From Saccoglossus kowalevskii (lineage: Eukaryota; Hemichordata; Enteropneusta; Harrimaniidae), in NCBI RefSeq assembly GCF_000003605.2, contig NW_003129358.1, positions 95,452 to 159,451 of the forward strand: a stretch of 64,000 nucleotides of DNA. The letters are read 5' to 3'. Made by a program: the position numbers and the translations under genes. The stretch's first letter is position 1. Every line of letters starts with the position of its first letter. Below, in pieces: positions 3,124 to 21,619 of the stretch. The notes beneath the pieces were generated by a model. That model was given only the letters and a program-made list of their open reading frames with translations. It did not search any database and was not told the origin of the DNA.

Positions 3124-3874
3124 TTAAGAGGAATTGTTTTCAATTGGATGTGAATTTGCACGTACTCTAGTCGACCGTGTACTGCGACGATGACGACACG
3201 GGTTCAGATGTTCAGATTCACCAACGAATGATCCAGGCTCTCGAACTGAGCCAAATGAGCAGAATTTACGCGGATTCATAGCAGAACGAAATCCGCGTCG
3301 AAAATTGTTATTATAGTAACCATACACAATCGGGTTAACACAGCTGTTGAAGAAAGCCAACCAATGAGCGAAAGGTATGACGTATAACACAATGGTCTGA
3401 ACCTTGCGATTAGACATGTTACCGAAGTCGATCAGCAACATGCAAATATGAATAGGCAACATGGAAACTCCGAAAAGGATAACTACAACTAGAATCATTT
3501 TCAGAACTTTGATTTTCTGCTTGGATATAGACGCATGCGCTCCAGACTGTGTCTCTTGTGTTACACCAGGTGCATGTCGTCGCCATACTTTTCTGACAAT
3601 TCGTATATAAGCCACGCTTATCAATAACAATGGAATGAGATAGACAAATGCAAATGAGATAGCTGTGTAGGCTTTCCTGTGAGCAACATTCGGCCATTTT
3701 GTTTCCGTACATACGTAGATCCAGGTTTGGGAGCTCAAAGGCCAGACTATTAGATCCAATACTATTCCTTGTGGCACCATTATGGCGATGGAGAGAATCC
3801 AAATGACAACCACGTGCACACAAGCTGTGGAAATTTCCATGCGTGGACGTAGTGGGTTTACAATATTGTTGTGC
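3124..3874 (-). CDS. Coding exon 3 of the NPFF receptor-like gene (ICL2 to C-terminus)
   Basis: The acceptor TTTATTTCAG precedes the base that completes Arg123; the frame then runs [16 protein letters not shown] through TM4-TM7 to a stop at 3124. TM4 has the conserved Trp, TM5 its Pro and Tyr, and TM7 has NPIVY. Intracellular loop 3 is short ([19 protein letters not shown]) and ends in a basic KQKIKVLK stretch typical of G-protein contact regions. The cytoplasmic tail of about 65 residues is rich in Arg and Ser and offers phosphorylation sites. TM6 reads ILFGVSMLP: Ser and Met occupy the positions usually held by Cys (or Ser) and Trp. I saw no clear AATAAA-type polyadenylation signal close downstream on the minus strand. 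Confidence 0.95.
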
Positions 3875-6800
3875 CTGAAATAAAGAATTGAAAAAAATCA
3901 CATTATTATATGCACATATGTTCATTTCCATGGCTGACATGGCGTCCTCCATATAATGATGAAACATGGGCCAACACAGATACCGTTATTATATAATTGG
4001 TAATTAACGTTGCATTTTTACATTGTAAAACCCTTCACCGATCCCTTTAAACATCCTAAGGGCTTTGAGCAATTCATGAGAGATCTTATCCAACATAGTC
4101 CTTAAATCGAATTTAAAAGAACCTTCAACATTACAGAAAGTGGCCTTGAGTGACTACGACAATTTAGACTGATTTGGTGAGTACACACCCCGACCTTCAA
4201 TACAAGCTGACTTCAGTGTTTCAATATTTTAAAAAATGAATTTAACATTTTTTGCTGAGATCATAAATGTCAGTGAAATATGTTCTACTTATATAATTTT
4301 ACACATCACTTTGGAATAATGCATTAATAGTTATAAATCTAAATTAGCATAAGTCAGTTTCTTCCGAGTATATACACTACAAAAGAAACTCGGGAGATTG
4401 TTATTTAAATAGTTGTGATAAAATGCCCAAACAAACAATGAACTCAGAGAAAACACATACATATATTTATTCCAAATCAGAAAAAAAGTTGATAAAATGC
4501 ACTAAAGACGAAATCATTGGTGATATATCTCATGATTTAAACGTCGATAGCATTGTTCTCCGATAACCTTAAGGTAGAAGCCTACTCATAAATTAAAATA
4601 CCCAGAATTTATTCATTTTGCAATAAACTGTACTTGAAGAATTTTGACCAAAAAAAAGTTGGGGGTCACCCACCTAATTTTTGAGAAATTGATGGTTGTA
4701 TTTTAGTGGAAAGTCGCCATTTTGACACTATTATATCACTTTTACCACAGGTTTCTATGGCAGAGGTATTATGCAAGACTTCAAAATCTAGCCTGGTGAC
4801 ATATGCTGAAAAAAAATCATTTATTGTTAATTAGCGGAGTACTTTTTGTTGTTCTGAATTATTTAAAAATCTGGGTTTTAAAGTCTCAAAAAAATGCAAT
4901 TTTTCTTTAAGATTGTGTTCTATGGAATTGTTCTAAAAATAGCAATTTTTAAGAAATATTAGGGCACATTTCTCAAAAGGCTTAACTGTAACACACAAAA
5001 TAATGCTATTTAATTGTACCATAGCTTCATGGATGTACATAATAAACTAATGAACATTGTCATGCGATTTATGACCAATTTTGTCAAAAATTATGACAAA
5101 TTCACTAATTTGGAGCAGCTTTTACTAGATGAGTTGAATAAATATAGATCGTGACGTCATGACATTAATATCCTGTTTATCTCATGATTCCGTTTGGCGG
5201 ATTTTAATTGCAAAAACTTTATTATTTAGCATGTATAAATTGCAAATAATCGTCGTTTCATATGAACACCTATTACTGTTTTGTTATCCCTTATGTAACC
5301 CTAGAAAGCTTCTGAGACGCATTGGTGATATTATTACTAATTTAATTGAATTAATACATATTTCAATATGGGTGACACAAAACGTGACACTCCATCTCCA
5401 GTCTGCTAGCATAGATTAATCAGTTCACTATTTATTGTATTAAATATTAGTACGGAAATGTACGGACAATATTTAGAATTTTTATTAAATGGAATTTCAA
5501 TGATATAATAGTATGTTTACACCATTGTGTTACACGCTATTTCGAGTGGTCTGTTTTGAGTATGGCACAGTGATATGTGCATGTAATTTCAAGGGCAAGT
5601 TGAATTTATTGTGATCTTCAGTTCAAATGTGAGGCTCGTATATTGCGTATTTATATGTTCGTTTTATGCATTGGGTTTCAGTCATGACTTGATGTATTGT
5701 TCAAAATGTGTGTTTGTACACTGAATAGTGGCAAATGCTTATATGAGAATATATTCAATTCTGTCAACATTATGATATGATATACCGCGGCAATTTTAAT
5801 GTCATTGCATACCATTGTATTTACACCAATATGTCGCTTCTAATGGCTATGCAATATGTGTATAAAGTCCTAGACATCAACGGTTTCCATTTTAATGTAT
5901 AATATAATATGCCATATGGTGCTAGTCTCAAGAGGTTGTCGTAATTGTTTAGTACGTTCCAGTGTTGTATTTCTTGATTATTGTATGAAGTTATTAATAT
6001 ATTGTACATACAACTGACGTTTACCTATGCCTCATTCTAAAAAAGAATGACAGTTTGATATTTGCTACATTCGAGATGGAAAACAAGATAGTCGACCCTT
6101 GTCCCCAGTAACCTGAAATTGGCTGACAATATATTCCGATTTTGGCATACTTGTTTTTTTGGAGGCTTCAGTGTCGGGATCAACTCCGGTTTTTGGAGGC
6201 ACCTTTTGGGGTATACCTCGGTTTTAGAGACTTTTGTAAAGATAGACTTCAGTTTTGAGAGGCTCCTGTTAGGGTATTTCTCGAATATTTTGATAGTCTG
6301 GTTATTTTATATGTTTGACACATAGTAGCTTTCATGCCTGATAGATTATTAAATATTTAAAGGTTATTTAGAATTGAATGTAGTCCTCATATAATGTTTC
6401 TGCCACAACCGTCATACCAGCCTCACCACGTCGTTCGAAATAGCACTATTAAGCTTACACGTCACGCATCTTAGCGAGAAAATACATCCAGATATTGTAC
6501 AGACTCGCACATGGTTACTTAGCCCAATTTACTCAAGCCGTATATTGTACTTTATGTCAAACATTTCATAACAACTTTAAATACACTTGATCGGCCGAGT
6601 AATAAAAATCATAAGACAGTATAATTGCACGGGATTTCCTGTTACAGATTATTAAATATACTTTGGCGATTAAAAACGTTCCACAGCCCGTGTGTACACA
6701 ATGTCTATTATTTCTTGAAATAGGTCATTAGTTGTTAATAACAGCACATCTTGTATGGCTTCAACATACTCAATCGTCAACGGATGTTTTTTTCCCCGAA

Positions 6801-9800
6801 TGCCTTCTACATTCACATAACACGCATACACGACCGTGCATACGTATTAATACTTGCCACGGGCTAGAGAAGTCTACTTATCAACATGTCAGAAAAAGAC
6901 CTCCTAAGTTTGAATGTACGTGTAAGAATTACAAAGAGATTGTTTGGTATTCACCTACGCTTTAACTGCCAGACGGAACCTGAGTATTTTTTAAACCAAA
7001 TTTGACGCTAACCGTACACTCATTTACTCACAAACACTTATGTAACAATATACTTCATATGTACTTATCTTTTATTCTATGTATACCTAATCAGATTGTC
7101 TGGGCCAAGTGTAATTTATACTAATTCTCTGTTTTTAAAAGTGACCGTTGTCGTTGCTCCTAGAATAATTCTACACTAGTGTGCATATTAAAAAACGTAT
7201 ACTTAATATTTGATATTACGTCACTGGCTGTCCGATGTATTTAAGAAGTACCTAATTACAATAGGAGTGGGGATGTAAGTGATGATTAACATAATGCATC
7301 TTTTTGATTGCATCGATAACTAAGAGAGCCATTTTGAAAACGTAGTTGATCGTGGGGTATGGTATGACAACCAAGTTTGACGATGATGAATCAACGCAAT
7401 AGAGCAATTATAATATTAAACTGTTTTTATAGTCATATTATTCATTTTGTTGCTATATATAATTGACGTAACAGTTGACATCAATGTATATTTTTATGCC
7501 GTAATATATAAATACCGATTTCTTCGTCACATGAAGGAACAGGCGTGTTTTAAAGTTGAAAATAGTTGGATTTAGAATAACTTATTGTATTGAGTAAAAT
7601 AATGCATAACCCAATTACAAAATATAAAACAGGTTTAACTAGTATTGCGTGTTGCGTGAGTGACACATACTTGACCTTCTTGTCGTCTCTCATTGTGTAT
7701 GGCAAGGGGGAATTGAGTCGAGGTTGCCATGACAGCGACGCCATATAGGAACATTAAAAAGACACGTTTGTATATACAAAATGGAAATATAATTTCCTTC
7801 TCTATTACTAAAACCAAATGTACTTTTGAGCTTATCAAATCGAGTTTCTGTACATGAATTGAATCCTTTATGTCATTTTACTTTATGTGTGTCGTAATGT
7901 TCACTGATTCCCTGAAACCTTTAACATACACCTGTAAACATGACAAAACAGATTTATATATGTTCACGAATTCAAAGAGTCCAATTATTTACAACCGCGA
8001 GTATACAGGTAATTGTACGCTTTGAAGTGGGTTTAACATAAACTACATTGTTTACAATATTATAACAGTTCGGTTTGTAATCTTAGAAACACGACAAAAA
8101 TGCACAATTGAAGCTGCACAGCTGGTTAAACTGCGATACTACTATTAACAAAGTATTCATTTAGTTTACGTCAACACGAAAGAGTTTATTGAACAGTTTA
8201 TCATTTGATCATTAACACCTACTATGTATACTGTAACATTTAATGCATATTTTGATTACGTTAAAATCGTATTGTTTGATCAGCCGAATTAAAAAATAAA
8301 CCAGACGTAACGGTTAATGGCTCTATTAGTTGCACACTTTTAGTTTTAATTTACAGTCCACATAAGAACAATAAAGTTACACGAAATATTAGTATGTGGG
8401 AATTCACAATGATGGTTTATAATTTACATATGAATAAAATTGTGGCGGTTTACCATCAGTAGAAAAACCGAGAGACAAACGTGCGTTAACTGGAATAAGG
8501 ATACGGTCTGAATGACAAATGTTAAATTGACCTTGGTATACAACACGACACATTTATATGATATGTTATTTTGTGTAGCTCACATATGTTACAATAGTTC
8601 TTGATAAAATTAACCGTAAAGATTGAATTAAATGTTGATCCGTACTTAAAATCAATATAAGCGATCACCCGGTTTAGTGGTAACATGGTGGATGAGTAGG
8701 CTTTTATCCTTGACAACGAACATGGGGTTATATCTCTATTTAGTGATCCGCGGAAAGTGGATGAAACAAATGGTGCGCATAACCGTTCACATTTAATATT
8801 GAACAGTGTTCCACGGGCAGCATTCGGGTGACTTTTAAACAACTCTTAGCAGTCACGATCTAATAAAATGTAAGATTGAAATAGATGTAACCAAGTGTAA
8901 TATAAGTGTTACCTAATATATTTGGCGCAAAAACTAATAAAATATACTACTGGAAAATATTTGAATATAATTGCTTAAATTTCAAATAGTATATAGCAAT
9001 CTCTTCGGTTTTGTTACAAGTCGATTCGAAAGGAAACTACCACATGTATTGGTGTGGGACTAATCCCAGTGACATTTCAAAATAGGTTCGGAAATAATTA
9101 GCGGCGGGTGAATGTGTACAGAATGGCATGAAAAGAATTGAAGATGCGATAAGCACATGCCGTGAGCACAGAGAGTAACGATATGTTTGGAAGTACAAGA
9201 AACCTACTGTTATTTGTAAATCACAAATAATAATCCCATCGCAACAAGAAACGTGTCTTATACGCATGAGACGATAGTTTACATAGTTAATGTAAAGACG
9301 CCCACTGCGTTGGGCACAGTTGACATAGTCACCAGAGGTGATTATGCTCGCATCCCCGCGGGGGGGACAAGATGATCAAGCACACGATAGTTTTCAGATG
9401 GGACAGCTGGAGACTCAATGCGAGAAAAAATGTAGCTAGATAAATTGAGAAATCAAAGAAAACCACAATGAAGATTCGACTGTCGACAGAACTCTGGCTC
9501 TCATTTGTTTATTTTTCGGAAAATTGTAAAAAATAAATGACGTTGCTTTTCATTCTATCGACGTGGGACGTAACCAGATTAAATTAATCAGGTATTTCAA
9601 CGCAACTAGTGTTGTGGATATCGGTAATTTTAACTATGTTTTAAATATTAAACGGTTTGCTTGACATGACCTGCTTGCTGGAATAATCTATCAAGCAGTC
9701 GATGCAATTATTGTCTACGTGAATGTAATTAGATTTAATAGTACATACCATTTATTTTGTAATCACACGCACCTGTCCTACTTATTCGACAATGTCAAGT

Positions 9801-12800
9801 TTTTATTTTGAAATAATCTATATAATAATATTATAGTATAATAATATGTAATGTCATTTATGAATAATATATATTATTATACAGTCATAATTCTAATTAT
9901 ATACAAATATCCTGCCCTATCACGGTCGATCCTCAACATCTTCAGATCGACAAATTAATATGTCGGCTGCGGCAGAGTTGAACATGTTTATATCACTGGC
10001 AAATGTAATGAGACACAAAACATCGTACTGGTACCCCTGCTTTCGTACATCTATAGGACTTTGTCACTACCATGGTTTACACATGTTATAAAACAGTCTA
10101 AAGTCTAATAATATAATCTTATTGCATATACCACAGTTGGATGAATTAGGCAATCATGTTACGATTTTCAAGTGTGAAAATTTTTGGTACATCAAATTGG
10201 GACACACATCTTCACTTCACTGTAGATTAAACGTCAAAAGTTTCATTATTTATTATAAAATTAGATCAGCTGACCGATCACCCCTTTCTGTGACGTAAAG
10301 TGCACTTTATTTCTGTTCTGTCCGGACACAATACCTGAATATAGAATATAGAGTTCTTCTTAGAGAGGTATATATCAATGTTTCAATGATCAACATATCA
10401 CAAAACTCATACGTACTTAACTATAAACAAGAACCACCATACATCCTCACTGTAGAAGGTGAAAATAAGTAAATCAGGCTAACATGACTCTGGTGAAGCT
10501 TGGTAGGCTTACCTCCCGCAAAGTGGACACCTCAGAGAAACACAGACAGTCGAATTCGAAATACCGAAGAGTCTAATACATTTGGAACATGAAATGTGAG
10601 AACCATGTATGAAGAAGGGAGGAGCGCAAATATATCAAGAGAAATGCAATCAAATGAACGTGAATGTGTGAGACAAGATGGTTATACTGGGGGACAATTA
10701 TACACACTGGAATTGAGACAGAGAATTTGCCGGATACAGAAGGGGTGACAATTATGTTTTTAAGGCAAGCAGCATATGCACTCGTAGGATGGAAACCAGT
10801 TAGCTCAAGAATCACGATAGCCATGAGTTATACACTAACAAAAGAGGAGATTCGGAAACAAAGAAGTGACAGCTTTAAAACGCTATCCAAGATAGTGAAT
10901 TGTCTAACTTTTCAATTGAATGGAAAATGTTAATGCTAAAGTGGGACATGATAACTCCGGATACTATCGTGGGCTAACATGGAGTAGGCACAATGAATGC
11001 AACTGGTCAACTCTTTGCAGATGTGTGTGAAGACAACAAATTAGTTATAGGAAGTACAATGGAACTTCTAGATGTGAGGGTTCGCCGAAGAACTAATACA
11101 GAATCAGATCATCCTCTGGTTGATGGGAAATTGCAACTCACGCAAAAGAAGGTAAAAAACCAGCAATCCGTGGGTGAAATTTGCTGTAAACCTCAAAGAA
11201 TGGTTAACGAATCAAGAATGGGAAGAAAATCAAGAATTATCTTAAACCGGAGCTACAAAAACAAGGTTATAGTGGGAATAACAAGCACATAGAGTCCAAG
11301 AGAAATGTAAAGAGTAATAACAGGAATTACTTTAGGAACTAGTAATTTGAGCAGAATAACATTTCATTTTGTGTTACCAATTGATTGGCTCATGAGGAAA
11401 ACAACAGGAATGAAAGACAGTAAACACTATAAGAACAACTCGAAAATGTCACATACCCACGAGCAAATGCAAGAAAATACATCAAGCGAAGAAAAAACAG
11501 CTATGACAATTAGACTGCACATCAATGCAAACAAGACAAATGTGATGAAAATAAATAACACCCAAGCAAACAGTACCAGTCTATGAAGTGGGTGATAGAA
11601 ATAACATCATTTACATATCCAAACAGCATTGTGGACACAGCTTGAGGGACAGAGCAAGACACTAGAAACCGGATTGGAAAGGCAAGGACAGATTTTAATT
11701 TGCCTAATACACTAATAACTAATACACTAATGAAAGAGCAAGGAACCGTCACTAGAAAGGCATTGCAACAGAATCCATAGGGGTAGAGAAATAAAGGAAG
11801 GACAAGAATATGGGATACAACAGACTAGCGCAGAGTAGAAGAAAGAGGAGGGAGACTGTATGTAGCCTATGCAGACAATTCAAGAAATTCATGAAATAAT
11901 GGGAAAGTAAAGATAAAATTGACAGGGACACTGCCAAGGAAGGCGTGGGTAATTCTTGTTGATAGACAGTTAAAACGTTGGAGAAAGATGATTTCAACAA
12001 AAAATAACCCACTCCATTATTTACACATTGATGAGCAATCAGAAGGTTGTGAACATGTGTGTTATGATTGTCATTACACCAAGTCCTTGTGGAGAGATGT
12101 TTTGTTGTGGTGGGATGTTCCACTTAATACGCAGTCACCAGCAAGTCGATTGCGCATGATGATTTCTGATCGAAGAGAAATGTTACTGGTGAATTTGTCT
12201 GCTTGCTTGTAGAAAAAACATATATATTTCTGCAAAGTGAAAGAGGACCAAACTTTGAGGCTTTTGTGACTTAGTGTAAACGAATTTATGATTGTGAAAA
12301 CTACATTGTAAAGGAAGGTGGGAAGATGATATAAACTAAACTCACGTACAATTTATAATGATTGTCTTATGTTCTATGTTACCATTTCAATTTCCGTCAA
12401 AGGAAGTTGGTGAATATAGTGAAAATCTGGTCAAGGGGCAGCGTTGTTTCACAGCAACGGGCCGATTATAGTAAAACTTCTAATATAGTTAAACTTTGAA
12501 TTTCTAGTTATTTTGATCAGCGGCGACACACAAGTCTTGAATTCCGCTCAACTCGCGCGTGAACTAGTAACTCGACTTCTGCAGTTTGCGCGCTTCAATT
12601 TTTCTGGTTACGTCAATTCTATTTGTGTGAATAAATAAACTTCTCGGCTGTGCTCACGACACGAGGCATTGCTTGCTATAAATTAAAACGGGGGTCGTCA
12701 CCTACGCACGCGCTAGAATTGAGTCCCAAGCGACGATAACAACACACGTTAAAAAGCAAAGACTTATGGGTAGACGCTTCTTTGTAAACATGACACGCTA

Positions 12801-15800
12801 TGGCCATCTGACGCATGCGTAGGTGACGGACGACTCCCCCGCTTTAATAACTTTAGTCGTCATACCCACTTCCTCTGCAGGAATGTTGTCATCCATTGTC
12901 GTAAATAATTAGCTTGCCGCAAGACGTCTTGCGCTGTGACCAAGGTCTGAAACCACATTCAGTTGGCGTACAAAAGATAAAAAACTATATGCGAATATTT
13001 TACTGATATTTAATATATGAGGGATTCCATCTTGAAAACGAATCTATAAAAACAAAAGACTTCATTTCGAGCCGTATTTGTGTGAGGCGCATTTATTTGG
13101 TTATCACTTGTGCGCAAGTTGACTGTGTCTAAAACATATATTTTGTTCGCTTTAGCATGCACGGTTCGAGAACTGAACTCAACATATTATGCTTCAGATA
13201 TTTCAATCTGCGCCGAACTGTGATAGTTGTAACCGTGTGCCAAGAAGTAATATGGCTGACTGCATCGTCTGCGACCCAGTAGACCGCTTGTACCTAGTTG
13301 CTTATGAACTGTTGTAAACGTATTTTGTGAAGATTATTTCAAAGTAATGTAGAGTATGATAGTATACGTAGATTGGTACTATGTGATATTGATTGTGCAT
13401 ACATTATGACCATGAACTGAAATAACAGGACAGAAAATGTTCAAAACAAAAAAAAACAAAAAGAAACTGTTTAAAACTAAAATAATTCAGAACAGAAACA
13501 GTTTAATACAATAAATGTTCCGAACAAATGAACAGGGGACAAGATAATAACAAATAACAAAACATCTAAATATATCATATAATAATCGAAAAATAATCAA
13601 AAAATATGAAAATCTGAAATTGTTATAGAAAAATGTCGATAAAGGGGATTATAGTAACTAATATTGTGTAATGCTAAAGGAACAAAAAATCCCTCCCCAT
13701 AAATGAATGAATTGCTCTTCTTTCGGAAATGAATCATTGGCTGTGTCCTGAGGTGATTCTGCGAATGACGTTAATTAAATCGCCCACTCGTCACATTGTT
13801 CGGCAGGCACTGTGTGAAAATTGTGTTAACTTCTACATCATTTATTTATTTCTCTTTTTTAATACACATACAAGTAACCACAGTCCTCCTTGCGACTAGT
13901 ATTAAACCCAATCAAAACAGCGTGTATTCATATTTCTTATCTAAATATATTAGACATACTAGTAATCTATACACTTACGCATTGAATGTATGTCACATGT
14001 GTCACACTGAAAGCGTGTTGTCATGGAAATGGCCTTACATTGATTGGTAATTATAGAGAATTAGTTTTCATTTGTAAAATTTAGTACCATTAAGATATGA
14101 AGGGAAGCGTGGTCGGATGAACTATAGACGAGTTCCTGTTACACTGATAAGGGTATTGTGCAAACACAGGGAACAAGATATTTGATGGACAAATTGTGTT
14201 CAATTGGCGTATTTGCCCCTAATTGGTAGCAAGGGACGTACTGCAAAGATCCAATAAAGATGAAATGAAAGTCACATTTTTGGAGAACACGATGGTTTGA
14301 GATAAATTAAACATACTTAAATGTGATGGACAACAATTCTGTGTATTCTGAAAAAGTACGTTGGTTTTGATATTGGATTTAGTCAAAACAAGTACTTTAT
14401 ATTGGTAGTCGTGATCCCCTCCCAAAGCAAGCACTGGAGACATTAACAGTAACATGTGATTGCCGGTATAGGAATATTTTGACGGCAAAATGATGAGTCG
14501 GCAAGTAAAATCAAAATGTATAAACCAATCATCTTGGTCCGACAATTCATTGAGTTACGTAATAACTGCAATCCCATGGCACTAAAGTTCTAGATTGTGG
14601 AATACGAATTGAAACATGTAAAACATTTAGTCAAACATTTGCTTTTTCAAAAGGAAACATTGAAATGTATTATTTGTAATCATGTCATCGAACCACGTGG
14701 GTATTACTTATGTCTTATACTTGAAACAGTTCCGTCATCAATGGAATGATAGGCATGGTCATCGCGCCGCGTCCTGTTCAATGAGGGTTTCATAGCAACG
14801 TGTACAATGCGTGTACATTGTTTGTTGACACGAAATTCAATCACGAGCTGCGCAACGACCACCATCATTTAACTCGATAAATGACCCCAGGTCAAGAAAT
14901 AGTAAGTCCATATCTGCTGCGATGTATCTACATTTAATTATTTTTAACGACGCTGCGCGCGGCGATGATTATATCGCCGTTAGACAATTCAAGCTGAATT
15001 CAAATTTCGCACGTCTGAGCATGTCACTGCCGATATGCAATGCATTGTGGGAGAGAAGATTGCATTTTGCACTACTGAGCACGTTACTGCACATATATGC
15101 AAAGCATTATGGGAGAGAACTTCACATTTTATATTATTATTATCGCACGAGAAGCTCACTAGCTAATTAATTGTATGTTTTAGGATTTATATCAATAAAA
15201 ATGATATGAATTTTTAGATATGGGGAAAAATAGGTCATCATAGAAGCTAAGACATATTTTGTTTCTGGAAAGTTGTAGAAACAGCCATCTCTGTTCGCAT
15301 TGTGAAATAAAATGATATGCGTATTTGTCAGTAATTTGTTTCCCAAGATTAATACATGTCCGAGTGCTCACACATATGTACGTATTCAGTTTATGTAATC
15401 AATATTCATTCCTAAAGGAACCTAACTATTTCACGTCTTGTCATTATTTTTGTGTTCATTGACGTCTTTATTATTACTGACCACCACCACCCATCGTTAC
15501 TCATGCATGCAAATGGACGAACAGATCTCGCTGAGAGCGAGGAAATAGCGAGACTTAATTTGGCTCTTGAATAATCTATCATCCTCTCCCTCATCGCGTT
15601 CACTGTTCCAAATACCGTATGTCGTATTGGTTACATAGAACAGAATAAGTGTGGAGTGGACGCGATGGCGAGGACAATAGAACTCTACTTGAGGGGCAAA
15701 ACATTGCCACATAGCCCTTTAGCTCTCAACGAGATATTGGCATCCATTTACGTCTAGCTGATTGAACTTCAATATAGTTGTATCGTAATTTCCAGAATTC

Positions 15801-18800
15801 ACCCTGAGTGGAAAGTTGTGTCGTATGTGCACTATCATATATAGTTTCAAAGAGTGGGAAAACATATTAACTAAAAGATTATTATAAAAAAAATAATTTG
15901 TGTTTTACCCCTCTCATATAGACACTAATAGACTGTTAAATAAACTACAAAAGCCATTGGCAATGGGAATAGCCTATACTCTGTCAGAGTAAATGAAAGA
16001 CAAACTATTTATATTATTTAATGTGCTTTTCCTACTCCCGGTGGTATTGCGGTATTAATGAACTCCCCTCGCGTATACACACTTAATAATTTATCAAGGA
16101 AATATGACAGATTGCAAAGTGTCACTAATAATTAATAAAAATCATTCTGATGTTGGCACTGGCAATTGATCATTGCAAGACACGCCATACTGTATTCGTA
16201 TCCCTACAATAAAACCTTCTCTCTCTCGTGTTAGCAGCTGTTTGTTCACAAGTTTTCAACTAGTACTGAGAGCTGTATATTTACCCTTCTTTTCTTGTTA
16301 GTCAAAGAATGCGCATGAACGGTGAGCGCTTATGCTTTCAAGCGGGGAGGTCGTCACCTGCGCACGCCGGAAATTGAGTCCCNNNNNNNNNNNNNNNNNN
16401 NNNNNNNNNNNNNNNNNNNNNNNNNNNNNNNNTCATGGGTAGACGCTTGTTTGTAAACACTGACACGCTATGACCATCTGACCCATGCGCAGGTGACGAC
16501 TCCCCCGCTTTAAGTATTTTGCGCACATACACGTGTTCATGCGTTCCGATAAGTCGATTGAAATGAACTTTAAATTCGAATTGGTATATGCCCCCCATAA
16601 TAGTAAGTATTAATAATATAAATTCAATGTTAAAAATATGTAGCATGTTTATAAAGACCGATAACTTGTTAATTTATTCAAACGGTGAATGTCCATTAAA
16701 CGGAAACGGCTCATACAGCTCAATCAGTAAATATATAATTTTGTAAGATTGTGCATCTGATGCTTGTTATTAATCAAGACGGGCGGTGCAACCGGGGAGG
16801 CCAATTTTACGCAAGCGTCACAGTGCGAGTTTTACATATTTTGTTTAAAGGGCGGTAGTCGTCGCGCCACGCATGCGCGAGAATGAGGGTCCATATAAAC
16901 AAAGATTGCAACTGTGACTGTTGCGAAGAGTACAAACTGAGACGTTAAAAAGCTTTAATTAGATTTTTTAGGTGATTAGACTGAGTTGTCGAAGGAGTAA
17001 ACGGCGGTAATCAGTGCAAGTCACGCCCAGATCAAACCTCACACTTGTGATTTTCATTATAAGAACGCATTGGATTATGGGAAACTCAATGTTTATGAAC
17101 ACAAATGTCGTACAGGCGCAGCGCGATGACTACCTCCCTAAGTGGGTCACATTTCAGCTCAAGTCACATTACATATGCTGAGCTGCCTCAATGACCATGA
17201 AACACAGTACATGTATTGGCACCAGGTGTTCCCACTTGTTTAATTCTCATGGAAAACGCTTGAGGGAATATGCCTATACACACATAAAACTGGAACCCGA
17301 TAATTAACGTTATGTAGTTGTTTTAATGTAACACACAAGAACCTGAATATAATTACTACACTCTCATTTAAATCACCTAAAAACCATTCTTGTCTGAGAC
17401 ACTAGTATAATGCAAGTTAGTTACAACATTTAAATGTTGATATTAATGCTAGCACACTTCTTTGAATACGTTGAGCGATATTGCAACAATTACAATACTA
17501 GAGTCTCAAACTTAACATGCATTAATTCTCTGTCAATATACATTCTGATATCACACTTAAGAGTTTCCCAAATTAGCTGGAATGAAATTATATAAATTAA
17601 ATGTCGTTGATAAAATAGTACGGCACCTTTTTTGTTAATGTTTGTACTGATTGTAAAATAACAACCGAGGCAGGTGTTGGTATTCCGGAATCACTTGTGT
17701 GATAATCTACCATGACTAATTTCTCATACACATGTTTATTGTATGCGATATGAATAAAGCATTGCCACATCACAAATTGATTGATATTAAAAAAATATAT
17801 TTTGTCAACAGAACATTGTAGAAACCAAAGTGACACATATGATATAAATTTATTTGTACTTTCGAAATGAGTGAGCACATTTTAGAACTTGTAATCGAAG
17901 GGAGTCACATTTTGGAATATTAATTTGAGGTGGGTATTTTTCTTGTTATATTACTGGTTGATATACATCCCCTTCCTCCTTGAAAATAAATGAACCTTAC
18001 CTGTCTATTGCAATGATAGTGAGTGTGAATATGGATGCAGCCACCGACAAACCTTGTATAACTGGCGTCAGTTTACACATTATCACACCAAATGGCCATC
18101 CTGAAAAAATAAACAACGTCAGAATCGTTACTCGCATCATGGACATCCATGGTCGCATTCGGACGGCGCACAATCGCCACCCGTCGCCACAACAAGTTAG
18201 TCACGTACGTCACTGTATCATGTGCGGATAAACCACATGGGACCAGAACATCGAGAAATACAAGATTCTGGTCAAGTTAATTAATAAATTAAAACATATG
18301 CATGTATGTCTTAAACAGCGCCTTTATATTACCAGTACTAGTATTATTTCATTGTTGTTTCGTGCCATTTTGTTTGCTTAATATCCGCTAAACGATAACA
18401 TACATCAACAAGTCGGCGTACGAACATAACGAATGAAGGTCACATAACACTGGAGTTTAGGTTCATTACTTAAAACTTATATATGGATTAACAATAACAA
18501 AGGAAAAATGTAATACTCTCAGCACAACAATGGCATTCTCTTAATCTATAAGATATGTCCGAGTTCCAATCGCTGTTGAAAGCAGCCAATCAACAAGCAC
18601 CGTGTGTGAGGATTTTATTTGAAAACATTTCACTGTTATTCAATTGGTCAATAAAACTTGACGTTTAGATTTGAATAATGAATTTCATAAATATCTATAA
18701 AGATGAAAGGAACGCCTCTGGTGAGAGTGAAGATAAAAGTCATGCATGGCACAATCTCCGTTAAATATCCAATTTAAGATACATGTCAAGAGTTATGGAT

Positions 18801-21619
18801 CCAGAAGGTGATACTTAATTATGATATTTTGTAACATTAAAAATAATTGACATTCAGTCATCTTGTATCTGATCATCAAACGAGTACTTCTCCATATTGC
18901 TCTGAACAGCAATAATTTAAAAAAACGGCCACCATTTTGAATACATATTTATATCTATGATGTATAATAAATATATAAAATTTGAACTCGATCAGTCAAA
19001 GTATGTCAGAGATATGGTACTAGAACCGCATTGATTTGAACAAAATGGCCGCCAGTCGGGCATTTTTAATTTGATCAGTCTGCAAAACAAAATGACGTTT
19101 ATCAATAACCAATAATGTCTAATGTATGTACCAAGTTTGAACAACATCCATCAGCCGAGAAATGCTTGGTTTTGATGATTTTTCAGTACATGAATGGCCG
19201 CTATTCGGCCATCTTGAATCAGATCGTGAAACAAATGGATGTACAATGTATAATATTATGTACGATGTATGTGTGAAGTTTAAATGTAATCGGTCCAGGC
19301 ATGTATAACATATAATTCCAAACGCATGGACACGCGGACGCACGGACACACGGACGCACAGTAGTCAATATAATAGTCCTAACTGCATCCGAACGGGGAC
19401 TAATAACATAAATCTAAAACAATTGCAATAGTTAGTAATTTTATTTAACAAGCACAATAGGAATTAGAACATAATTTCAAAATCAAAACCTCACAAACGC
19501 TAAAACCAAAAATGCAAAACACTTTAAAATCCCTGTCATTTCCTGCGTTCATTCCATACCAATAGTTTCAGAGTGTCCCATGCCTGTCTTAAAGTTAAAT
19601 ATCGGTTCCGTTCTAATAATTCAGATTTGTATATTGTTAGTGCTGAGTAAATATTAGTAGCACAGTGGTGATTTACATAAAGATATGTGATTGGTATATC
19701 AATGTGCATGGTACGTGGCATACTTTGTGACGTCACATCAAATCTTCCAGTAAGGCAAGGACGGGTCATAGTTTGAACCGAGTACCGAGTCAAATAACCC
19801 AGTAATGCACGGGGGATTACGCACAATGCATGAAATAATTGTTCAAAATTCTTCCGTAGAAAATACACCTACTGACAGAATGAAAATTTTAAAGACCGCG
19901 ACGGAGGTCGTACGACGCGTCGTGTTCAATATGGGTCCCACACGACGCGTCGAATGAGCGCTGCGTGACGATCACCGCCTTTAACTTTCAAATACACTGA
20001 ATGTGTTGACATGATTCTTCACGAATATCACATCATTGCTTTCCGCATATTTCCTTGATAAATAGATCACGAATTCGTAAAGAGATTCCCGCAGGAACTC
20101 TTGTTGTTTGAAAATGAGTCCATTCGGATAAATAATGGTGGAATAAATTAGTTTCGTTACTCGTACAATGGAAATGACTATCTGTTTAAGGACGGAATAC
20201 ATCTCCCTCACTCTGTGTCACATTCTATTATCGTGTCTATGTCATTTTGACGACTAAATAATTTACAATATTCACGCACAACATGTTTGCATCCAAGTGA
20301 CCGAGTGAGGATGATTGAATTAGCCTCAGTCATTATAGGTAGTACAATACAAAGGACGTAATTCAATAGAACCAAAAGGGTGTTCTTTTAAAGAGCAGAT
20401 GAGAATTAATGGCGCGGCTCTGCACATTCTCGTCTCGTGGAGTACTTGCCAGTCGTACTAACGAATACAGATTAATACAAATCACGTGATTGGATATGCC
20501 TGGCAGAGAAACTTTTTAGATAGGTAGAAGTTTGTGTTGGTTGATTGATATAACGTTGACTATACACAGTACATAGGACGTGACTATCGAGGTTACACCG
20601 CTGTTTTCTAAGTCGCGCTACCTAAGATCACTTATATTTAGCCACTCAGAGAATTTTTTTATATTTTATAATAAGGGGTCGCCCATTCGAAATAATTATG
20701 CCCGGACGAAATGATTACACTCAATTTTTAAATAGTTCGCCAAAAATGTACGGATATGACAGAATGATAATTTTTCACCGGACAATTGGCACTGTGTACG
20801 CCATGGCATAAATCTACATGGCTTATGGTATGGGTTTTGATATTACCTCCGTCCTGTCAAGTTACAAATTCAACATATCCACACCCTAGTTTTGTTCTTG
20901 GGTTTTATAGTTTGACGCAGGCACTCATTAGAATTGACAAATAGGCGGAAAATGAAACTTTTTGATTTTTGAAATAGTCAAAAATCGAATCCAAAAACAC
21001 CCTTTTTCTTTTATTTCTAGATATATAATACACAACCTCAAATGCGTGACGTGCGTATACGTGTTGAACGGTTTTAAAATATTCCATACTACGCAATTGC
21101 TTATTGGAGGATGAGTACCAAATAATTTTGTGAAACCACAGAAACTTTAATATGGTGCCAGGGCCGCCAGTGACAAGTCATCAGAGACGATCATTTACAG
21201 TATTGGCTGTATATTCTATACAAGACACATCGTAGCAATGTAGCTGTTGCATTTCTATGCTACATCATATTGAAACATACACCGAAATCAATCTCATATA
21301 CGTATGTTAGAAAGGTGCTTACGTCATACCCAAAATACAAACGTAACTTACCTTCTAATATATTCCCAACAAGTGTAATAGGCATGCAGAATATTGCCAC
21401 TAGTATATCAGCGACTGCCAGATTTACGATGAAGAAGTTTGTAACTGTATGCATACGGGGGTTCCGGGCCACGACCAGGCATACTAATGAGTTCCCAATC
21501 AAACACATAAGAAATATGAACACATAGGCGCAAATATAGATGCTTGTTATGAGAGGACCGTTCTTTAAATACGGTTGAATTTCCCTGGTTTCGTTGCTGT
21601 AATTACGTACGAAATCCAT
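3124..21619 (-). CDS. Neuropeptide FF receptor-like class A GPCR, complete three-exon coding region
   Basis: This is a plasma-membrane peptide receptor, expected to signal through G proteins. The coding exons are 21619..21352, 18100..18001 and 3874..3124, all with GT donors and AG acceptors, giving 372 residues. Residues 1-23 are extracellular with sequons at N6 and N9. Membrane segments lie near 24-50, 59-85, 95-123, 141-162, 191-216, 244-270 and 282-308. Visible landmarks are GNSLV in TM1, NLAVAD in TM2, GWPFG before Cys98, Cys178 in loop 2 (likely disulfide partner), FAHWLAFFN and NPIVY in TM7, then NNNFRRGF and a possible palmitoylation site at Cys328. The [33 protein letters not shown] and PFAHWLAF blocks match the NPFFR1/NPFFR2 and SIFamide receptor family closely. 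Oddities: TM3 ends DRH, and TM6 reads FGVSMLP, so Met261 replaces the toggle-switch Trp. Length fits the family. QRFP or NPY-type receptors are less likely alternatives. Confidence 0.93.
6158..6288 (+). repeat. Degenerate minisatellite, about 32-bp unit, four copies
   Basis: Four successive units share a pattern of TTTGGAGGC, then a T/G-rich middle, then ACCTCGGTTT, at lengths of about 34, 32, 31 and 34 bases. Unit lengths are not multiples of three, so the open frame across it is not a protein repeat. It lies in intron 2. Confidence 0.6.
10440..11900 (+). mobile_element. Decayed RTE/BovB-like LINE (endonuclease and RT remnants)
   Basis: In several frames the plus strand shows the ordered blocks of an RTE-type LINE. 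These are [12 protein letters not shown] (start of the APE-like endonuclease), ETRW, then [14 protein letters not shown] and GWKPVSSRI, then [10 protein letters not shown], then [15 protein letters not shown], then [17 protein letters not shown]. The block normally lying between LVIG and DVRV is deleted. Further on, [14 protein letters not shown] and [15 protein letters not shown] match the region just after the RT active site, and [10 protein letters not shown] and RIGKART match the following block; the RT core with the catalytic Asp box is missing. Many stops and frameshifts are present. The same endonuclease is known from bovine CFDP2, captured from BovB. It lies antisense to the receptor gene in intron 2 and must be old. 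Confidence 0.88.
11945..12350 (+). mobile_element. 3' end of an L1/Tx1-like LINE ORF2
   Basis: The frame reads [20 protein letters not shown], the Cys/His-rich block at the C-terminus of L1- and Tx1-type ORF2 proteins. It continues with [20 protein letters not shown] and [18 protein letters not shown], which match the terminal block of the same families. Two frame changes and internal stops show it is dead. Only the last ~130 codons remain, abutting the older RTE-like LINE on its left with no visible target duplication. Confidence 0.75.
12683..12847 (+). mobile_element. TTAA-flanked CpG-rich MITE, copy A
   Basis: Terminal inverted repeats are TTAAAACGGGGGTCGTCACC at left and the matching GGTGACGGACGACTCCCCCG followed by CTTTAA at right, with CGCACGCG/CGCATGCG just inside. 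The body includes GAATTGAGTCCCAAGCGACG and ATGGGTAGACGC. TTAA at both ends suggests a piggyBac-type TTAA target duplication. At about 165 bp it has no coding capacity. Confidence 0.85.
12918..12933. repeat. Perfect 16-bp palindrome
   Basis: CGCAAGACGTCTTGCG is fully self-complementary and has GACGTC (a CRE-like core) at its centre. It lies about 70 bases right of MITE copy A. A role is not shown. Confidence 0.7.
15004..15123 (+). repeat. Tandem duplication of a ~60-bp unit
   Basis: Two adjacent diverged units share ATTT.GCAC..CTGAGCA, GTCACTGC/GTTACTGC, TATGCAA.GCATT and TGGGAGAGAA. Period is about 60 bases. It lies in intron 2. Confidence 0.75.
15505..15757. mobile_element. Fold-back element, copy F1
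   Basis: The left part reads AAATGGACG..AGATCTCGCTGAGAGCGAG and the right part the reverse complement, CTCTCAACGAGATATTGGCA then TCCATTTACGTCTA. Near the centre GCGTTCACTG faces AGTGGACGCGATGGCGAGG. The whole element can fold into one long imperfect hairpin. Copies at 32.0 kb and 47.8 kb share TTGAGGGGCAAAA, CAACGAGAT and CATTTACG blocks. Confidence 0.75.
16337..16513 (+). mobile_element. TTAA-flanked CpG-rich MITE, copy B (contains a 50-base assembly gap)
   Basis: The ends are TTCAAGCGGGGAGGTCGTCA (the left TTAA mutated to TTCA) and GTGACGACTCCCCCGCTTTAA. The left body has GAATTGAGTCC and the right has TCATGGGTAGACGC, as in copies A and C. Positions 16383..16432 are N; by comparison with copy C they should hold the CAAGCGACGATAACAAC segment. 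It lies in intron 2. Confidence 0.85.
16845..17141 (+). mobile_element. Longer relative of the TTAA MITE family (copy E)
   Basis: The left end is TTAAAGGGCGGTAGTCGTCG, followed by CATGCGCGAGAATGAGGGTCC; the right end is GCGCGATGACTACCTCCCTAA, its inverted partner. The inner words GACGTTAAAAAGC and ATTATGGGAAAC match GTTAAAAAGC and CTTATGGGTAGAC of copy A. The element is about 295 bp, because roughly 130 bp lie between those two words. Confidence 0.65.
18001..18100 (-). CDS. Coding exon 2 of the NPFF receptor-like gene (extracellular loop 1 and TM3)
   Basis: This 100-nt exon lies between the acceptor ATTTTTTCAG and the donor GTAAGG on the minus strand. It completes the split Gly codon of exon 1 to give [10 protein letters not shown], then TM3 ([18 protein letters not shown]). 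It ends with AG, the first two bases of the Arg of the DRH motif. Cys98 is the conserved TM3 cysteine. Human NPFFR2 has the closely similar GWPFGNTMCK and QGISVAASVFTL. The exon is too short to stand out as an open frame and was found by looking for the missing TM3. Confidence 0.95.
18840..19400 (+). repeat. Three diverged ~140-bp repeats ending in a LINE-like 3' tail
   Basis: Three units carry the same order of words: a GGCCGCCATTTTGAAT-like block (near 18928, 19046 and 19194), then TGATCA or AGATCG, then a TATAATA-rich stretch, then AAGTTTGAAC..AATCGGTC-like words. The third unit is followed by GGACACGCGGACGCACGGACAC, the hallmark of RTE/CR1-type LINE 3' ends. Repeated 3' UTR units are known in such elements, so I read this as a LINE or SINE tail. 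Confidence 0.6.
19889..19984. mobile_element. Compact TTAA-flanked palindromic MITE (copy G)
   Basis: TTAAAGACCGCGACGGAGG at left and GATCACCGCCTTTAA at right carry TTAA on both edges. Inside are perfect 12-bp arms, GACGCGTCGTGT and ACACGACGCGTC, around a 14-base spacer. The right end closely matches the left end of copy E when inverted (AAAGGCGGTGATCGTC), which ties it to that family. It is only 96 bp long and lies in intron 1. Confidence 0.65.
21352..21619 (-). CDS. Coding exon 1 of the NPFF receptor-like gene (N-terminus, TM1, TM2)
   Basis: The exon encodes residues 1-89 plus the first base of codon 90. The start ATG at 21619 is preceded by AGCTAAA and followed by G, an acceptable context. 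An upstream in-frame stop makes an earlier start unlikely. The exon ends AGAAG and is followed on the minus strand by the donor GTAAGT. The short N-terminus has two N-glycosylation sequons (NYS, NET) and no signal peptide, as expected for this class. The open frame continues past the donor into the intron for about 30 codons but loses all similarity to receptors there, which supports the splice site. Confidence 0.93.

Follow-up and report, generated by a model that had tools for sequence, protein, structure and literature searches.

What kind of receptor results when a class A peptide receptor gene encodes methionine at position 6.48 of TM6, and DRH at the end of TM3? The gene in question occupies positions 3124-21619 of the window, by which we mean the whole 64,000-nucleotide stretch that was analysed (C2107:95452-159451 of a 572-Mb genome assembly in 4830 contigs). 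An earlier reading, made from the sequence alone, had seen in it an orphan paralogue of NPFF type with altered activation or ligand choice, perhaps born of an expansion of NPFF/SIFamide-like receptors in its lineage. Here we ask which family the gene belongs to, how many relatives it has, and what its unusual residues may mean for its function.

Gene structure and coding sequence

A protein of 372 amino acids is encoded in one frame by three exons on the minus strand, joined via GT-AG introns. Its elements and the codons discussed below are as follows, in window coordinates.

21352..21619, minus strand: exon 1, with the start ATG, the N-terminus and TM1-TM2; ends in phase 1 (GAA G/gtaagt)
18101..21351, minus strand: intron 1, GT-AG
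18001..18100, minus strand: exon 2 (100 bp), with ECL1 and TM3 including Q3.32 and V3.36; ends within the Arg codon of DRH (AG/gtaagg)
3875..18000, minus strand: intron 2, GT-AG; contains a 50-N assembly gap at 16383-16432
3124..3874, minus strand: exon 3, with the remaining bases of the Arg codon, then His3.51, TM4-TM7, the C-terminal tail and the stop
3871..3873, minus strand: codon CAC, His124 (3.51) of DRH, from DNA and alignment
3460..3462, minus strand: codon ATG, Met261 (6.48) in FGVSMLP, from DNA and alignment
3448..3450, minus strand: codon CAT, His265 (6.52), a Trp in NPFFR1/2, from DNA and alignment

The exon 1/2 junction lies in a Gly codon after TM2. The exon 2/3 junction falls within the Arg codon of DRH (residues 122-124) and settles this motif (AG/G CAC). 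Direct reading of exon 1 reveals two N-glycosylation sequons in the N-terminus, NYS and NET. The protein has a single Pfam match, 7tm_1 (PF00001, 1.9e-60), covering positions 1-260 of the 260 in the profile. In the alignment, the class A landmarks N1.50, D2.50, R3.50, W4.50, P5.50, P6.50 and N7.49/P7.50/Y7.53 are all present, and Y5.58 and F6.44 are kept as well; W6.48 is absent, its place being taken by Met261. A single-sequence AlphaFold2 model of the receptor was poor (mean pLDDT 49.0, pTM 0.31).

Met6.48 was seen in one genome of one species, and it might reflect a sequencing or assembly error, or a gene in decay. We consider this very improbable: TGG and ATG differ by two base changes, so that Met261 is not explicable by one base error, and the 372-codon frame, the GT-AG ends of both introns and the class A landmarks tested, except W6.48, are all intact. 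The three-exon receptor with Met at 6.48 and DRH, as first described, is confirmed from the exon DNA (codons ATG and CAC), and the gene is intact.

Family identity and copy number

Among PDB chains, the best matches of the receptor are NPFFR2 (1.1e-90, 307.7 bits) and NPFFR1 (1.5e-87). Next come orexin receptor 1 (2.5e-60, 207.8 bits), the QRFP receptor (1.4e-49) and NPY2R (1.3e-47, 166 bits); as the two NPFF receptors lead orexin receptor 1 by about 100 bits, the likeness to them is far above chance. Aligned identity is 48.0% with NPFFR2, 44.5% with NPFFR1, 39.3% with OX2R, 35.7% with NPY2R and 31.1% with QRFPR.

We then placed the receptor in a 19-row tree with five PDB receptors (presumably all human), 12 loci of the same genome and one same-genome amine receptor; loci L033-L036, L048 and L050 were left out, as were two amine receptors, L001 and L007, and no row was a SIFamide receptor. 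The receptor groups with NPFFR1 and NPFFR2 at 98/98. Other genes of the same genome occupy the NPY (95/98) and QRFP (100/99) groups, and the receptor is in neither. Four smaller trees, which included L001 and L007, retain its NPFFR grouping at 77-94% bootstrap: 77/81 with ten rows, and 80/85, 77/80 and 94/96 in three further sets from which L036 was dropped for its long branch and, in two of the three, QRFPR or NPY2R also. The NPFFR-type identity initially proposed thus holds, both in the PDB matches and in a tree that comprises NPFF, QRFP, NPY and OX2 receptors, without SIFamide receptors.

The reverse comparison drew on 19 same-genome proteins, namely the 18 loci L033-L050 and the receptor itself. 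Here NPFFR1 and NPFFR2 pick the receptor as best: NPFFR1 scores 283 bits with it and no more than 159 with any other protein of the set, NPFFR2 293 and no more than 179. NPY2R and QRFPR prefer other genes. OX2R too prefers the receptor (205 against 181 bits), and together with the 39% identity to OX2R, the DRH and H6.52 common to the receptor and NPY2R, and a 9-row tree in which a receptor-NPY2R grouping is not rejected (p-AU 0.105), this could speak for membership of the NPY or orexin family instead. Against it, p-AU in the same 9-row tree is 0.046 for receptor with OX2R (and 0.029 for receptor with QRFPR), PDB scores drop from 308 bits for NPFFR2 to 208 for OX1R and 166 for NPY2R, and the 19-row tree keeps the NPY, QRFP and NPFF groups separate, with same-genome genes filling the first two. 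We hold such a membership to be extremely unlikely.

According to excerpts of PMC4062910, the acorn worm is reported to have an NPFF-type receptor, and a sea urchin to have none. The SIFamide receptor of protostomes is stated to be the orthologue of NPFF receptors in extracts from PMC11087051, where the placement of the NPFF/SIFamide group among other groups is unstable. SIFamide-type receptors are described as general in lophotrochozoans, brachiopods excepted (PMC8557429, in part), and in xenacoelomorphs none is reported as identified (PMC6188537).

In a whole-genome protein search, with 110 of 617 first-look candidates scored, 111 matches were obtained. Two are exons of the receptor gene itself, exon 3 with 562 bits and another with 185; exon 2, which is short, is not among the listed matches. 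The best non-self match in this scored set reaches 37% identity over 321 residues (180 bits), less than the 48% shared with NPFFR2, and partial matches reach up to 43%. No close paralogue was found among the candidates scored, and neither the window nor the remainder of C2107:1-299451 contains a second copy. Since the genome search yields no close copy among the candidates scored and both NPFF receptors match this receptor best among the 19 proteins compared, this genome most likely has no other NPFFR-type gene, and the receptor is not part of an expansion. On this basis, with 110 of 617 candidates scored, the suggestion that it is an orphan paralogue produced by a lineage expansion is not supported.

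It is conceivable that several NPFFR-type paralogues exist, a Trp-bearing sister copy being missing from, or collapsed in, an assembly of 4830 contigs that is possibly incomplete and in which 110 of the 617 first-look candidates were scored. With 562 bits for the self-match of exon 3 against 180 bits for the best match elsewhere, itself below the identity of NPFFR2, and with no further copy on the contig segment covered, we find this improbable. A single NPFFR-type gene remains our reading.

The receptor gene seems to sit in gene-poor DNA. Within positions 22000-64000 of the window, in the part scanned, no gene was recognised, and there are few long ORFs and no tRNA. Ten ORFs of the window, of which seven lie within 22000-64000, were compared with Pfam and gave no match at E up to 0.05. 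The 235 kb of flanking DNA (L009-L032) contain two ORFs of 170 aa or more.

Other receptor genes of this genome deserve mention in their own right. Many class A matches (149 listed of 713 first-look candidates, not counted singly) consist of one uninterrupted frame over nearly the full 7tm_1 profile, and the genome apparently holds a large set of intronless receptor genes. Receptor genes are clustered on C593 (L036 and L041; six matches) and on C2070 and C129 (L047 and L048; five matches on C2070); the C593 matches end after TM5 and those of C2070 after TM4, so the remainder must lie in other exons. L041 and L047 group together at 96/98 in the 19-row tree, and their clusters represent a possible tachykinin/luqin-like expansion. 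We considered the C593 cluster as a source of NPFFR paralogues and rejected it: the best match of L041 is the substance-P receptor (1.5e-44, against 1.8e-40 for NPFFR2), and in the tree it joins L047 and not the NPFF receptors. L038 (C3178) and L046 (C4503) are QRFP-receptor-like, with 39% and 38% identity to QRFPR, and are grouped at 100/99; L038 has NRY at 3.49-3.51. L037 (C1210) and L040 (C363) are peptide-type receptors with NRY and NRF for DRY, found together at 99/98. Finally, L043 (C1491) and L045 (C3056) form a closely similar NPY-like pair with end branches of 0.067 and 0.062, either a recent duplicate or a divergent allele; L045 has DRC at 3.49-3.51.

Activation motifs and the peptide pocket

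The sequence-only reading had treated DRH as an abnormal activation motif. It is an ordinary one, as NPY2R carries DRH and QRFPR carries ERH in their aligned PDB sequences. The real oddity of the receptor is Met6.48. All 21 other same-genome receptors whose TM6 was read have Trp6.48: 8 of 8 among loci L001-L008, and 13 from the set of 18 loci L033-L050, where the stretches taken for L035, L036, L041, L047 and L048 do not extend over TM6. This sample was chosen, best matches first, and is no census of a genome with at least 149 class A matches. Of the five PDB receptors compared, four have Trp at 6.48 and OX2R has Tyr.

Set against NPFFR1 and NPFFR2 (PDB 9m2f and 9m54), the receptor is alike in S6.47, L6.49, P6.50, F6.44, NPxxY and DR or ER; it differs in having Met6.48 and His6.52 for Trp, His3.51 for Phe, and Thr at 45.51. 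With NPY2R and QRFPR it has His3.51, His6.52, Q3.32 and E45.52 in common, whereas both of these carry Trp6.48, are less identical to it (35.7% and 31.1%) and fall in separate tree groups. OX2R also lacks Trp6.48, and the orexin receptors follow the NPFF receptors in the PDB ranking, but OX2R has its own Arg at 6.59 and DRW, and 39.3% identity. Glycoprotein hormone receptors possess a large leucine-rich ectodomain and are not known to have a peptide-amide pocket. Among them, TSHR, FSHR and LHR carry Met6.48, as CMxP, but have ERW, and Asp6.44 in TSHR; the TSHR mutant M637W is tabulated as constitutively active, 4.8-fold (excerpts of PMC5136658).

Trp6.48 is common and not universal: extracts from PMC12814323 put its conservation among class A receptors at 68%, and hence it is not required for class A membership. 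The same extracts present its role as key switch as disputed. They describe Y1R with W6.48 changed to Ala as still signalling, though detuned, and Y1R with four Trp replaced as having lost virtually all activity, perhaps via failed membrane insertion. In the adenosine A3 receptor, W6.48F impairs G-protein coupling (PMC4128046, in part). Among the open-licence papers listed, we found no report of Met6.48 in an NPFF-type receptor; a sequence left unremarked in a table would escape notice.

The residues expected to contact the peptide are largely those of NPFF receptors. Excerpts of PMC13107563 name as NPFFR1 contacts of the RF-amide end T2.61, Q3.32, H7.39, E45.52, T5.39, W6.52 and possibly D6.59, and call T5.39 essential in NPFFR1/2. 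Six of these seven are identical in our receptor by alignment (T2.61, Q3.32, E45.52, T5.39, D6.59 and H7.39); V3.36 is also identical to NPFFR1/2. The seventh, W6.52, is His, a residue shared with NPY2R and QRFPR. In NPFFR1 the ligand Phe has W6.52 stacked on it, so affinity or ligand preference could differ here. Residue 45.51, tied to NPFFR subtype preference in the same excerpts, is Thr in the receptor, neither Trp nor Arg.

How far could these changes go? If M6.48 and H6.52 marked a shift to a different ligand, the receptor would be an NPFFR by descent and no longer of the RFamide type. Two Trp at or beneath the last Phe of the peptide have changed together, and the subtype-selectivity residue 45.51 is altered too. 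However, the six other contacts are all retained, and NPY2R and QRFPR, receptors for amidated RY/RF peptides, have H6.52 as well; NPY2R binds amidated RY peptides. We judge such a shift unlikely. Of the two consequences first suggested, altered activation is plausible from the residues, and an altered ligand choice has become less likely with six of the seven contacts kept, though W6.52 is replaced by His.

Proposed activation of the receptor

We now propose that the gene is this animal's NPFF/SIFamide-type receptor, apparently the only one, and that its product is probably activated by peptide via TM3 and retuned by Met6.48; its identity and residues are read from sequence, and the coupling and the retuning would follow by analogy. 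In NPFFR2, excerpts of PMC12069643 describe an activation that TM3 mediates via Q3.32/V3.36 and that F6.44 and W6.48 then follow. Those residues named for this path that were aligned are present in our receptor (Q3.32, V3.36, F6.44, L2.46, L3.43, I3.46, R3.50, Y5.58 and Y7.53), W6.48 alone being different.

An amidated peptide, with Arg-Phe-NH2 or something close to it at its C-terminus, would insert this end among the helices. Contact of its amide and Phe with Q3.32 and V3.36 would raise TM3; F6.44 and residue 6.48 would give way, and TM6 would swing out for Gi/o coupling. Met is flexible and unbranched, so it may fill part of the Trp space and keep the switch working, with kinetics or basal activity retuned. 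His6.52 would alter the floor beneath the last residue of the peptide.

The most likely outcome is thus an RFamide-type receptor that works, with TM3 driving its activation and with retuned kinetics or basal activity. By analogy with Y1R, detuned yet signalling after W6.48A, and with the A3 receptor, whose coupling is impaired by W6.48F, a functional receptor whose basal activity, kinetics or bias has changed appears likeliest.

A bolder version is possible, though less likely than not: judging by its residues, this may be the only NPFF/SIFamide-type receptor of a whole lineage and one without a Trp switch, with a Met6.48-His6.52 floor in TM6 and activation by TM3 alone. If true, nature would here have produced an NPFF receptor that does without Trp6.48, and its basal signalling might be raised or its signalling biased.

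For the retuned receptor that we prefer, the precedents in the TSH, FSH, LH and orexin receptors make Met6.48 a useful variant and no shock. With a nearly full peptide grip combined with Met6.48, this NPFF receptor would be a natural case on which to test the model of TM3-mediated activation set out for NPFFR2 in the excerpts of PMC12069643.
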